Source of the DNA: Catenulisporales bacterium
GTDB taxonomy: Bacteria; Actinomycetota; Actinomycetes; Streptomycetales; Catenulisporaceae
Assembly (NCBI GenBank): GCA_019510485.1
Contig: JAEKKI010000128.1
Location: 1-64,000 of the forward strand
Length of the DNA stretch: 64,000 nt
Reading direction: 5' to 3'
In this document: piece by piece, positions 332 to 4,146 of the stretch
Layout: the number at the start of each line of letters is the position of its first letter
How positions within the stretch are numbered: the stretch's first letter is position 1
Translations under genes and position numbers: made by a program
Notes under the pieces: generated by a model
Seen by the model: only the letters and a program-made list of their open reading frames with translations
What the model was told of the DNA's origin: nothing
Databases searched by the model: none

Positions 332-340
332 GTGTCAGCC

Positions 341-2023
341 ATGTGGAGACCCCTCGCCCTGGCCGCCGCGGCGGCGTTGTTCGTCACCGGGACGCTCGCG
401 GGCACCGCCGCGGCTGCCGGACCGACCCCCGTGGAGATCAACTATCAGAACCCGGTGACGGCGCTGCCGCCGATCGCCCGGCCCGCGACGCACAGCTGCA
501 CCGTCACCGCCATGCAGCATGACTTCGCCAACAGCTACGGGCAGCCCTTCGCCGGCACCCTGACGCCGCCGGCCGGCTGTCCCGGGCCCTGGTCGAAGGT
601 GGTGCTGGACTGGTCCGGCAGCGTGGCGGGGCGGCAGTACGACCGGCTGGCGGCGGTGTGGGTCGGCGGGGCGGAGGTGTTCCGGACCAGCACCCCCGAG
701 CCGGATCCGGCGGGCATCAGCTGGCATGTCGACCAGGACCTCTCGGCGTTCATCCCGCTGCTGCGCACGCCGCAGCCGCTGGTGGTGGACCTGGGGAATG
801 TGGTGAACACCACCTACACCGGCATCTACCACATGACGATGACCGTGACGTACTACCAGGCCGACAAGCGCAACCCGGAGGCCGCGCACAGCGACGTGGT
901 GGTGCCGGTGTCGCAGAGCACGTCCGCGCCCGGCTGGTGGAGCTTGAACCAGGGACAGACCGCGAGCACCTCCGTGACGGTGCCCCGCAACACCGTCGAC
1001 GCGCGGTTGCAGGTGTACGCGCGCGGCGGCGGGTGCGAGGAGTTCTGGTACTCGAATGTGCCGGACTCCTACGCGGCGGCGCACCCGGACTACGGCCTGT
1101 GTGCCGGCGGGACGTACCGCGAGGTGGGGGTGCTGGTCGATGGCAAGCCGGCCGGGACCGCGCAGCCGTTCCCGGCGATCTACACCGGAGGCATCAGCCC
1201 GCTGATGTGGCGGCCGATCCCGAGCATCGACGCGTTTCGGACCCAGCCCTATGAGATCGACCTGACGCCGTTCGCCGGCGTGCTGGCCGACGGCGCCGCC
1301 CATACCGTGACGCTGGTGCCGCCGGCTGGGATCTCCGACACCTGGCTGATGGACGGCAGCCTGTTCGTGGATGTCGACCACGGTTCGGCGCAGACGTCCG
1401 GGGCGGTCACCGAGGACACGGTCACGCCTTCTCCGGCGGTGACCTACAACGTCGCCACGCAGGCCGACGGCAGTGACCTGATCACCGCCGCGGTCACCCG
1501 GGACTGGGCCGTCGCAGGGTACGTGGACACCTCGCGCGGCCGCGTGTACACCCGCGTGGTGCGGCACAGCGACTACTCGAACTCCAACGACGTCGCCCAG
1601 GCCGGCACGGTTCAGACCACGGCGCAGCGGGACTCCGGCTGGACCCGGACCACCACGACCGTCGGCCCCGGGCCGGGCCACCGGCAGGTGCGGCAGGACA
1701 ACTGGTCGTACCCGATCGACGTGAAGAGCACTTTCGTCCCGGGCGCGACCTCCGACTCGTACACGGTCACCGGGCAGGTGAGCGTCGCCCGGCATCTGGC
1801 GACAACCGAGGCCGGCCCCGGGAACGCGTTCAAGACGCTGTCCGTCGTCGACGACGCGGTCCGGGCCAAGGGGAACCTGCAGCGGGAGGCCGGGGTCGCC
1901 GTGGCGGCCGACGGCTCGGACTCGGAGCGGTACGTCGGCGTGGACGGCGGTACGTGCTACGGGCACTTCATCGCCGCCGACCACGGGTACGTGACCCAGG
2001 ATGTGGCGATCGGATGCCGCTGA
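341..2023 (+). CDS. Secreted PNGase A-like peptide-N-glycanase family protein
   Basis: A protein of about 560 residues that begins with a typical signal peptide: Trp-Arg, a long Ala/Leu core and an Ala-rich cleavage region near residue 25. The body is rich in Asn, Thr and Val. It resembles the peptide-N4-(N-acetyl-beta-glucosaminyl)asparagine amidase A family, in which plant and fungal members remove N-glycans from glycopeptides; this family call is from memory of the fold's paired beta-sandwich sequence pattern. GTG at 332 in the same frame would add three residues; I prefer ATG at 341, directly before the signal peptide. It acts outside the cell. The actual substrate in a soil bacterium (plant or fungal glycoprotein) is inference. 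It is a single gene, followed by an 80-base gap. Confidence 0.75.
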   Translation: MWRPLALAAAAALFVTGTLAGTAAAAGPTPVEINYQNPVTALPPIARPATHSCTVTAMQHDFANSYGQPFAGTLTPPAGCPGPWSKVVLDWSGSVAGRQYDRLAAVWVGGAEVFRTSTPEPDPAGISWHVDQDLSAFIPLLRTPQPLVVDLGNVVNTTYTGIYHMTMTVTYYQADKRNPEAAHSDVVVPVSQSTSAPGWWSLNQGQTASTSVTVPRNTVDARLQVYARGGGCEEFWYSNVPDSYAAAHPDYGLCAGGTYREVGVLVDGKPAGTAQPFPAIYTGGISPLMWRPIPSIDAFRTQPYEIDLTPFAGVLADGAAHTVTLVPPAGISDTWLMDGSLFVDVDHGSAQTSGAVTEDTVTPSPAVTYNVATQADGSDLITAAVTRDWAVAGYVDTSRGRVYTRVVRHSDYSNSNDVAQAGTVQTTAQRDSGWTRTTTTVGPGPGHRQVRQDNWSYPIDVKSTFVPGATSDSYTVTGQVSVARHLATTEAGPGNAFKTLSVVDDAVRAKGNLQREAGVAVAADGSDSERYVGVDGGTCYGHFIAADHGYVTQDVAIGCR

Positions 2024-2654: not shown

Positions 2655-2897
2655 GTGCTGAAGACCAAGAAGATCGCCGCGCTCGTCGCCGCCACCGGCG
2701 GTCTGGTGATGGTCGGCGCCGGCATGGCCAGCGCGGCGTCGACCGCCGACAGCTTTGCCCAGGACTCGCCCGGCGTGGTGTCGGGCAACAACGCGCAGGT
2801 GCCGGTGCACGTGCCTGTGAACGCGTGCGGCGGCACGGTGAGCGTCATCGGCATCCTGGACCAGGCGTTCGACAACCCCTGCGTCAACGAGGGCTGA
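2655..2897 (+). CDS. Short chaplin (single chaplin domain, secreted)
   Basis: An 80-residue protein: a signal peptide of about 28 residues ending Ala-Ser-Ala-Ala, then one chaplin domain (Ser-Pro-Gly-Val-Val-Ser-Gly-Asn-Asn, the PVHVPVNACG core, and a second Cys in NPCVNE). Chaplins are secreted amphipathic peptides that assemble into surface fibrils and let aerial hyphae break the water surface. The two Cys, which form the conserved disulfide, are present. The frame is open further upstream to 2565, but GTG at 2655 is chosen because AGGAGGAAG lies 5 bases before it and the signal peptide starts there. A strong terminator follows directly, so it is its own transcription unit, next to a long chaplin gene. 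Confidence 0.95.
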   Translation: MLKTKKIAALVAATGGLVMVGAGMASAASTADSFAQDSPGVVSGNNAQVPVHVPVNACGGTVSVIGILDQAFDNPCVNEG

Positions 2898-2920: not shown

Positions 2921-2961
2921 GGGCGGCCCCGAGGATCCCTGGCGGGTCCTCGGGGCCGCCC
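2921..2961 (+). terminator. Strong intrinsic terminator after the short chaplin gene
   Basis: 18-base stem (2921-2938 with 2944-2961) containing a single G-T wobble and a five-base loop CTGGC, followed by CCTTTGTGTT. It starts 24 bases after the chaplin stop codon. Confidence 0.9.
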
Positions 2962-3066
2962 CTTTGTGTTCCGGTTTCCCGTGCTGATTCGCGACGTGTC
3001 GGAAGGGTTGCCATATTTCACTCGTACGAACGATTCTCCGTTTAGTCACAAAAACCTCCGCACCCA

Positions 3067-3115
3067 CCTGTCGTTAGTCGGATAGGTCAATCAGCTCGTC
3101 TGACAAAACGACAGG
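3067..3115 (+). promoter_or_regulatory. Inverted repeat in the long-chaplin leader
   Basis: CCTGTCGTT at 3067-3075 is matched exactly by its reverse complement AACGACAGG at 3107-3115, ending 21 bases before the ATG. The surrounding 2990-3110 region is AT-richer than the genome. It could be a leader hairpin or a regulator site. No clear match to the BldN-type promoter that drives chaplin genes in Streptomyces was found. Confidence 0.4.
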
Positions 3116-3136
3116 CGTCAAGAGGCAGGGGCTTTC

Positions 3137-4063
3137 ATGCAGTCTCCAATGAAGCGGCGGATCGCGTTCGGGCTCACCACCGGCGGGCTGCTCGCCGGCG
3201 GCGGACTCGGGTTCGCGCACGCCGACTCGACCGGCACGGGGTCGGGGACCACCGGCACCACGGCCGGGGGATCGCCCGGGATCCTCTCGGGCAACACCAT
3301 CCAGGTCCCGGTCGACATCCCGATCAACGTCTGCGGTGTGACGGCGAACGTGGTGGGCCTGCTGAACCCGGCCGCCCACAACGGCTGCGCCAACGAGGGC
3401 GGTGCCACGGCGACCGGCGGTTCCGGTTCCACGAACTCCGATGGTTCCACCAGCGGCTCGACCGCGAACGGCGGCGCGCAGGGCTCGCCGGGGATCCTCT
3501 CCGGCAACAACGTGCAGATCCCGGTGAACGTCCCGGTCAACGTCTGCGGCGACACCCTCAGCGTGGTCGCCGTCGGCGACGCGGCCAAGGGTAACCACTG
3601 CTCCAACGGGGGCGGCGCGACGGCGACCGGCGGTTCCGGCTCCACGGCCACCGGCGGCGCGCAGGGCTCGCCGGGGATCTTGTCCGGCAACAACGTGCAG
3701 ATCCCGGTGAACGTCCCGGTCAACGTCTGCGGCGAAAGCGTGAGCGTGGTAGGCATCGGCGACGCGGCCAAGGGCAACCACTGCCACGCCGGCGGCGGTG
3801 CCGTGGTCCCGCCTCCGCCCCTCAGCTCCACCCCGCCGAGCACGGCGCCGCCGAGCAACCCGGTCACGCCCGGCGGCCCGATCGACTCGCACCCCGGCGG
3901 CTCGACGGGCGGCAGCGGCGGCAACGGCTCGCAGCCGGACACGTCCACCGGCGCGCTGGCCCACACCGGCGCCGACGGCCTCATGCTCGCACCCGTCGGC
4001 GCGGCGATGATCGGCGGCGGGGCGTTCCTGTACCGGAAGTTCAAGCCGCGCGGCAAGCAATGA
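3137..4063 (+). CDS. Long chaplin with three chaplin domains and sortase signal
   Basis: 308 residues: a signal peptide (about 1-29), three chaplin domains (about 46-88, 117-157 and 178-218; Cys pairs 66/84, 137/155, 198/216) joined by Gly/Ser/Thr linkers, a Pro/Ser/Gly-rich wall-spanning stretch (about 222-272), LAHTG at 274-278, a hydrophobic helix (about 283-299) and the basic tail YRKFKPRGKQ. The LAXTG-helix-basic tail layout marks it for class E sortase anchoring to the cell wall. Long chaplins of Streptomyces coelicolor have two domains; this one has three, with domains 2 and 3 almost identical. A second ATG at 3149 is possible. It presumably anchors fibrils formed with the short chaplin encoded upstream. 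Confidence 0.95.
   Translation: MQSPMKRRIAFGLTTGGLLAGGGLGFAHADSTGTGSGTTGTTAGGSPGILSGNTIQVPVDIPINVCGVTANVVGLLNPAAHNGCANEGGATATGGSGSTNSDGSTSGSTANGGAQGSPGILSGNNVQIPVNVPVNVCGDTLSVVAVGDAAKGNHCSNGGGATATGGSGSTATGGAQGSPGILSGNNVQIPVNVPVNVCGESVSVVGIGDAAKGNHCHAGGGAVVPPPPLSSTPPSTAPPSNPVTPGGPIDSHPGGSTGGSGGNGSQPDTSTGALAHTGADGLMLAPVGAAMIGGGAFLYRKFKPRGKQ
3473..3734 (+). repeat. Intragenic duplication of a chaplin domain (183-base period)
   Basis: The stretch 3473-3551 recurs at 3656-3734 with only a few base differences, starting GGCGCGCAGGGCTCG in both copies. It encodes chaplin domains 2 and 3, 61 residues apart. The first domain (from about 3272) is clearly more diverged, so this is a recent in-frame duplication. 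Confidence 0.9.
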
Positions 4064-4100
4064 CGCCGTCGCACAGAGAGCCGGAGTAGCAACCGGAAGC

Positions 4101-4146
4101 CGGAGCCGGAGCGTGAACCCGAAGGGGTGTTCACGCTCCGGCTCCG
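4101..4146 (+). terminator. Terminator hairpin after the long chaplin gene
   Basis: Perfect 18-base stem (4101-4118 with 4129-4146) and ten-base loop, 38 bases after the stop. There is no T tract, as is common in actinomycetes. Confidence 0.8.

Follow-up and report, generated by a model that had tools for sequence, protein, structure and literature searches.

The window, a stretch of 64,000 nucleotides from a member of the Catenulisporales (contig JAEKKI010000128.1), encodes a short and a long chaplin side by side. The genes and other features of the locus are arranged as follows.

332-2023, plus strand: PNGase A-like gene (Pfam)
2117-2533: thioesterase gene, upstream of the chaplin pair (Pfam)
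2655-2897, plus strand: short single-domain, ChpH-like chaplin gene with a GTG start, directly upstream of the long chaplin gene (Pfam, 5.1e-24)
2921-2961, plus strand: terminator-like hairpin between the short and the long chaplin genes (terminator and inverted-repeat scans)
3053-3076, plus strand: putative ECF-sigma-like promoter pattern, AAC-N16-CGTTA, in a conserved block upstream of the long chaplin gene
3137-4063, plus strand: long chaplin gene, 308 amino acids (open reading frame list, Pfam)
3137-3223, plus strand: probable Sec signal peptide, MQSPMKRR...FAHA/DS, its cleavage site judged by eye
3233-3394, plus strand: chaplin domain 1 (PF03777, 76.2 bits)
3446-3607, plus strand: chaplin domain 2 (PF03777, 78.9 bits)
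3454-3784, plus strand: 183-nt tandem repeat, 1.8 copies, spanning domains 2 and 3 (repeat search)
3632-3787, plus strand: chaplin domain 3 (PF03777, 77.8 bits)
3956-4060, plus strand: LAHTG sortase signal, hydrophobic stretch and basic tail (motif search; tail read in the sequence)
4101-4118/4129-4146, plus strand: perfect 18-nt inverted repeat 3' of the long chaplin gene, not called by the terminator scan

The gene at 3137-4063 is a long chaplin by its domains, its cysteines and its sorting signal. From a signal-like start, the protein runs through three chaplin domains and a Pro/Gly/Ser-rich spacer to LAHTG, which lies at position 284 of the open frame that begins at 3104. Pfam family PF03777 (ChpA-C) covers three stretches of it (E 5.2e-61, 202.8 bits, for a cut-off of 21). 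The start (GGCTTTCATG) is conserved in all nine aligned genomes, the window's among them, and the secretion signal is probably genuine, being typical by eye. The first-pass annotation had described a long chaplin with three domains, and this description is borne out by the three Pfam placements and the C-terminal LAHTG. Its end at 4146 overshoots the end of the reading frame at 4063 and takes in the inverted repeat, a possible transcription end.

Each of the three domains has two cysteines and an SGN motif. The middle CGN is absent from all of them and is replaced by CGV, CGD or CGE, and the residues before the second cysteine are GN in domains 2 and 3 and HN in domain 1. The pattern of three GN motifs per chaplin domain (PMC13251363) is thus not found here, yet Pfam scores all three domains well above its cut-off. 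The cysteine pair is itself not universal, since the second (C-terminal) domain of ChpB is given without cysteines in the part of PMC13251363 available to us. In Streptomyces sp. BK340 (L205), both cysteines are likewise missing from chaplin domain 3. NCBIfam returned no match for either the short or the long chaplin at E up to 0.01, and a sequence comparison of the long chaplin with solved structures gave none at E up to 1. AlphaFold2, run on nine orthologues, produced no usable fold (mean pLDDT 39.6, pTM 0.26); the only regularity in this poor model is a similar strand pattern at each chaplin domain.

The long chaplin lies in a conserved neighborhood. The PNGase A-like, thioesterase, short chaplin and long chaplin genes occur in the same order in eight of the nine other genomes of the genus sample (spread over two contigs in G009), so that the PNGase A-like gene stays near the chaplin pair in all eight. 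A Rhomboid-like gene (Pfam), found downstream of the long chaplin in the window, comes next in seven of these eight; in the eighth, G001, the contig stops inside the long chaplin. The start motif of the short chaplin, VLKTKK, is identical in 8/8 translated relatives. Outside the genus, only the two chaplins of nine window genes compared find a match in 11 presumed Streptomyces loci and three sister-genus loci.

The block at 3010-3136, just upstream of the long chaplin, is strongly conserved in the nine aligned genomes (window's included), and both halves of AAC-N16-CGTTA and their spacing are kept in all nine. A spacing of 16 nt is usual for ECF sigma factors, and the reader of the pattern is presumably sigma BldN. 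The pattern has two matches in the window for 0.16 expected, a count that is not independent as the pattern was spotted first and counted later, and the looser AAC-N16-CGTT has eight for 2.4 expected. A sigma-70 promoter scan found none. Terminator-like hairpins in the scanned region number two for 1.1 expected. Streptomyces chaplin genes are named as sigma BldN targets in the accessible part of PMC4125116. We regard the block with its AAC-N16-CGTTA pattern as a candidate developmental ECF-sigma promoter.

Domain number was compared across a genus sample of 10 genomes (G000-G009, one per species), in which G000 is the window's genome and G003 its sister. Domains were counted by Pfam on whole genomes, by motif and by a clean chaplin profile. 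At the syntenic locus, 7/10 genomes (G001, G002, G004, G006, G007, G008 and G009) have four domains and 2/10 (G000 and G003) have three. We take G004 to be probably Catenulispora acidiphila. For G005, no orthologue of the long chaplin was found and its whole assembly holds a single chaplin match by Pfam; assembly loss or true loss may account for this. LAHTG is present in seven of the eight other orthologues of the genus, the exception being G001, whose long chaplin is cut by the contig end after the fourth domain and before the position of any sorting motif. A first chaplin profile also gave an antisense signal of up to 58.8 bits, which was rejected as some of its seeds were reverse-strand translations; the clean profile listed no antisense matches.

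Beyond the genus, three domains beside a short chaplin were found in each of three sister-genus genomes (G010, G012 and G013; the genus is probably Actinospica). A three-domain protein with LASTG occurs in G011, from another genus of the same family, and a four-domain protein with LAHTG in G015, from another family. Among 11 picked long chaplins of presumed Streptomyces, ten are two-domain proteins and the remaining one has a single domain. Scanning genome contigs with the single protein detected no relative, and relatives were found with the aligned domain regions as query. Named loci were taken as the best 80 of 574 confirmed matches, ranked by likeness to the three-domain query, so that no frequency can be derived from them; among these 80, 68 have at most two domains, 11 have three (ten Streptomyces and one Actinospica) and one, a Streptomyces locus, has four. 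One of the three-domain loci among the best 80 is that of S. scabiei 87.22 (L199), a complete genome. A class-wide draw gave a chaplin match in 28 of 148 genomes, the window's and ten presumed Streptomyces included. At 12 of the 19 loci new in this draw, each taken with roughly 1,500 bases of flank on both sides of its match and read with a lenient domain cut-off, a frame carries three to eight weaker chaplin-like domains, and seven of those 12 frames have LAxTG or LPxTG.

More than two chaplin domains is therefore ordinary in the group to which the window belongs. The first-pass annotation had stated that ChpA-C have two domains, and the available parts of five papers say the same (PMC3079736, PMC5618241, PMC7766987, PMC5650626, PMC13251363). 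This rule of exactly two domains describes S. coelicolor and is not defining for long chaplins, because some Streptomyces break it too. From clade to clade the domain number varies; within either of the two clades of the genus, the sampled species all agree. The earlier expectation that it would be loose among close relatives finds no support in the species sampled, as seven other species all have four and the window's genome and its sister both have three; the counterpart that the same annotation had named, a three-domain protein ordinary for the clade, is largely what the counts of relatives give. In the passages searched, from a literature mostly without subscription papers, no statement was found on long chaplins that have three or more domains.

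Chaplins with several domains are also found elsewhere in these genomes. The window's genome has a second anchored chaplin of 616 amino acids (L041:2309-4159, plus strand, contig C231), with six domains and an LPHTG after a Pro-rich spacer. A six-domain chaplin is present in eight of the nine other genus genomes and was not found in G005; LPHTG is seen in G003, G004, G006, G007 and G009, and the contig stops earlier in G001, G002 and G008. G004 has two more three-domain chaplins (L133:4658-5446 and L134:4761-5498, plus strand), which are perhaps secreted and not anchored, because they lack an LAxTG or LPxTG motif.

The history of the domain number was approached through species trees. In a tree of rpoB DNA (3,495 columns, 12 genomes, with G010-G013 as outgroup), the window's genome and the seven four-domain species form sister lineages at 96/98. 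A midpoint-drawn tree of PNGase A DNA from nine genus genomes unites it with G003 at 100/100. The rpoB protein alone leaves the genus unresolved, and rpoB found no match in the assemblies of G003 and G005, so that G003 is placed by PNGase A and domain 1 only. Three domains are likely the ancestral state and the fourth a later gain in the larger clade of the genus; this is the simplest account because the outgroup genus and the first branch both have three. The Streptomyces long chaplins with three domains probably represent separate gains, because two domains are found in most Streptomyces loci sampled.

The best-surviving alternative, though an unlikely one, is an ancestor of the genus with four domains, one of which was lost by unequal crossing-over in the lineage of G000 and G003, with domains 2 and 3 homogenized likewise. 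Seven of the nine genus orthologues do have four, and domains 2 and 3 of the window's protein, apart from each other, most resemble the third domain of G006 (87% and 85%). Against this, the outgroup has three and the rpoB tree does not put the window's genome within the clade of four-domain species, so that one gain is more parsimonious, by just one step, than a four-domain ancestor with one loss.

As first noted, domains 2 and 3 of the window's protein lie 183 nt apart and are near-identical over 79 nt, the best 79-nt stretch agreeing at 77/79 positions. Over their full register, 145 of 165 nt agree (89%), and exact in-register matches extend to 53 nt at most; domain 1, compared in this register, is 65% similar. 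In the domain tree, the two group at 97/87 as each other's nearest relatives, and the nine domain 1 sequences of the genus form a clade at 99/98, so that domain 1 is a type of its own throughout the genus. The dS between domains 2 and 3 is 0.145, the lowest of nine such pairs in the genus (others 0.159-0.549). Their DNA identity is 89% in the window's protein, 76% in G003, 74-80% in the sister genus and 84-89% in the seven four-domain proteins. All domain comparisons rest on 41 codons, and the trees are shallow.

The two domains had been called recently duplicated. This is partly borne out: they are nearest relatives, and recency is favored by the lowest dS and by an identity above that in the sister and the sister genus. 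Against it, the four-domain relatives reach equal identity, domain 1 itself shows a dS of 0.117 between the window's genome and G003, and conversion of old copies fits as well. Because of these values and the 41 codons available, the event need not postdate the split from G003. In AU tests, the placement of the window's domain 2 (p 0.077) and domain 3 (p 0.093) with their positional counterparts from the seven four-domain species was not rejected, nor was that of domain 2 with domain 2 of G003 (p 0.215) and of domain 3 with its domain 3 (p 0.192). In G003, domain 3 sits beside the domain 1 group at 85/79. Because of this position, and because G003 lacks a close pair of domains 2 and 3, a one-to-one match between the domains of the two sisters is uncertain. 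A plausible reading of the alignments is that the later domains were copied or converted among themselves in the lineage of the window's genome, possibly as far back as its split from G003.

A duplication in this species alone, deriving domain 3 from domain 2 of a two-domain ancestor while the sister gained its third separately, appears improbable. It would suit the 97/87 grouping, the lowest dS of 0.145, the mere 76% identity in G003 and the 183-nt tandem unit, and events of this kind are plain in Streptomyces strains NK08204 and A012304. It is opposed by the three domains already present in G003 and in three sister-genus genomes and by the four of seven genus members, and conversion of old copies explains the grouping equally well; domains 2 and 3 of G002/G008 also group together (81/91, not starred). 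In the Streptomyces pair of cases (L202/L206), domains 1 and 2 of the long chaplin of NK08204 are 100% identical in protein and the four domains of that of A012304 are 90-98% alike. Judged from their sequences, these two are clearer instances of recent domain copying than the window, and they make a stronger case for a change in copy number. An assembly artefact concealing a gene with two, or more than three, domains is hardly credible, even in a draft of 326 contigs that is 77% complete, because the copies differ at 20/165 positions with no exact in-register run above 53 nt, which makes simple assembly duplication unlikely, and relatives with single-contig genomes have three (G012) or four (G004) domains.

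Taken together, we consider it very probable that this gene corresponds to chpC of Streptomyces: a secreted, sortase-anchored scaffold that acts together with the adjacent upstream short chaplin, and whose three domains were inherited and to which a fourth was added later elsewhere in the genus. The proposed orthology to chpC draws on the gene pair and the domain make-up. The window's genome has six sortase matches, of which three could be classified, two as class E (above the NF033747 cut-off). By analogy with ChpC/ChpH, a class E sortase would join the LAHTG end of the long chaplin to the wall. Its three domains, borne on flexible linkers, would assemble jointly with the secreted short chaplins, and the anchored protein would tether their amyloid layer to the hypha, as suggested by S. 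coelicolor; a role in aerial growth would follow the same analogy. In evolution, three domains would be the inherited set, common to the sister genus and sister species, with the larger clade of the genus gaining its fourth later; domain 1 would be kept as its own type, and the later domains occasionally copied or converted among themselves.

That the protein might instead serve mainly as a surface adhesin for hyphal attachment, and not as a scaffold of the aerial coat, seems rather improbable to us. Chaplins take part in attachment too, according to the accessible part of PMC4255298, and extra domains on linkers would suit such a task. The pairing with a ChpH-like short chaplin speaks for the coat scaffold, since it is as in Streptomyces, where ChpC and ChpH serve aerial growth in the available text of PMC3079736. 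The two roles are not exclusive.

By itself, the window gene is an ordinary long chaplin for its clade, with three domains and a predicted wall anchor. The textbook split between one-domain short and two-domain long chaplins fits S. coelicolor and not the wider group. More tentatively, domain number could be an evolving setting characteristic of each clade, in which domain 1 stays constant, the later domains turn over through copying and conversion, and the number sets how many sites per anchored molecule are available to the short chaplins for seeding or tethering. The series would run from two domains in most Streptomyces loci sampled, through three in the sister genus and the lineage of the window's genome and four in the rest of the genus, to six in the second anchored paralogue. 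Chaplin domain number as such an evolving 2-3-4-6 setting would be the mildly new point; if it tunes the seeding or tethering of the coat, the series offers natural test variants.

One of the closest known systems is that of S. coelicolor. As far as the accessible parts of the sources go, long chaplins there consist of two domains and a sorting signal, and sortase attaches ChpC to the wall (PMC3079736, PMC5618241, PMC7766987); long chaplins are regarded as scaffolds or tethers for the short ones (PMC7766987, PMC5618241). The genes chpC and chpH have adjoining numbers, SCO1674/SCO1675 (PMC5650626), and in a strain with ChpE only, the addition of chpC and chpH led to aerial growth that was slower but robust (PMC3079736). 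A review covering 100 actinobacterial genomes listed Catenulispora acidiphila with reciprocal hits of ChpB and ChpD (PMC4255298, likewise seen in part). The window protein is like ChpC (SCO1674), as described in these partial sources, in its N-terminal chaplin domains, its C-terminal sorting signal and its ChpH-like (SCO1675) neighbor. It differs in having three domains where ChpC has two, and in CGV, CGD or CGE at the place of the middle CGN. A short chaplin followed by a long one also occurs in the presumed Streptomyces genomes, with two domains there; the window's other neighbors that were compared have no match in the 11 presumed Streptomyces loci.

The other long chaplins of the genus share the locus, neighbors, promoter block and type of domain 1 of the window protein; they have four domains in 7/9 other genomes and three in G003, and none was found in G005. 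The sister-genus long chaplins (G010, probably Actinospica acidithermotolerans L198; G012; G013) likewise have three domains, an adjacent short chaplin and LAETG or LAQTG. Identity is 51% for G010, and the other neighbors of the window were not found at the three sister-genus loci. The long chaplin of S. scabiei 87.22 (L199) shares the three domains as well, with LAQTG and a short chaplin in the locus.
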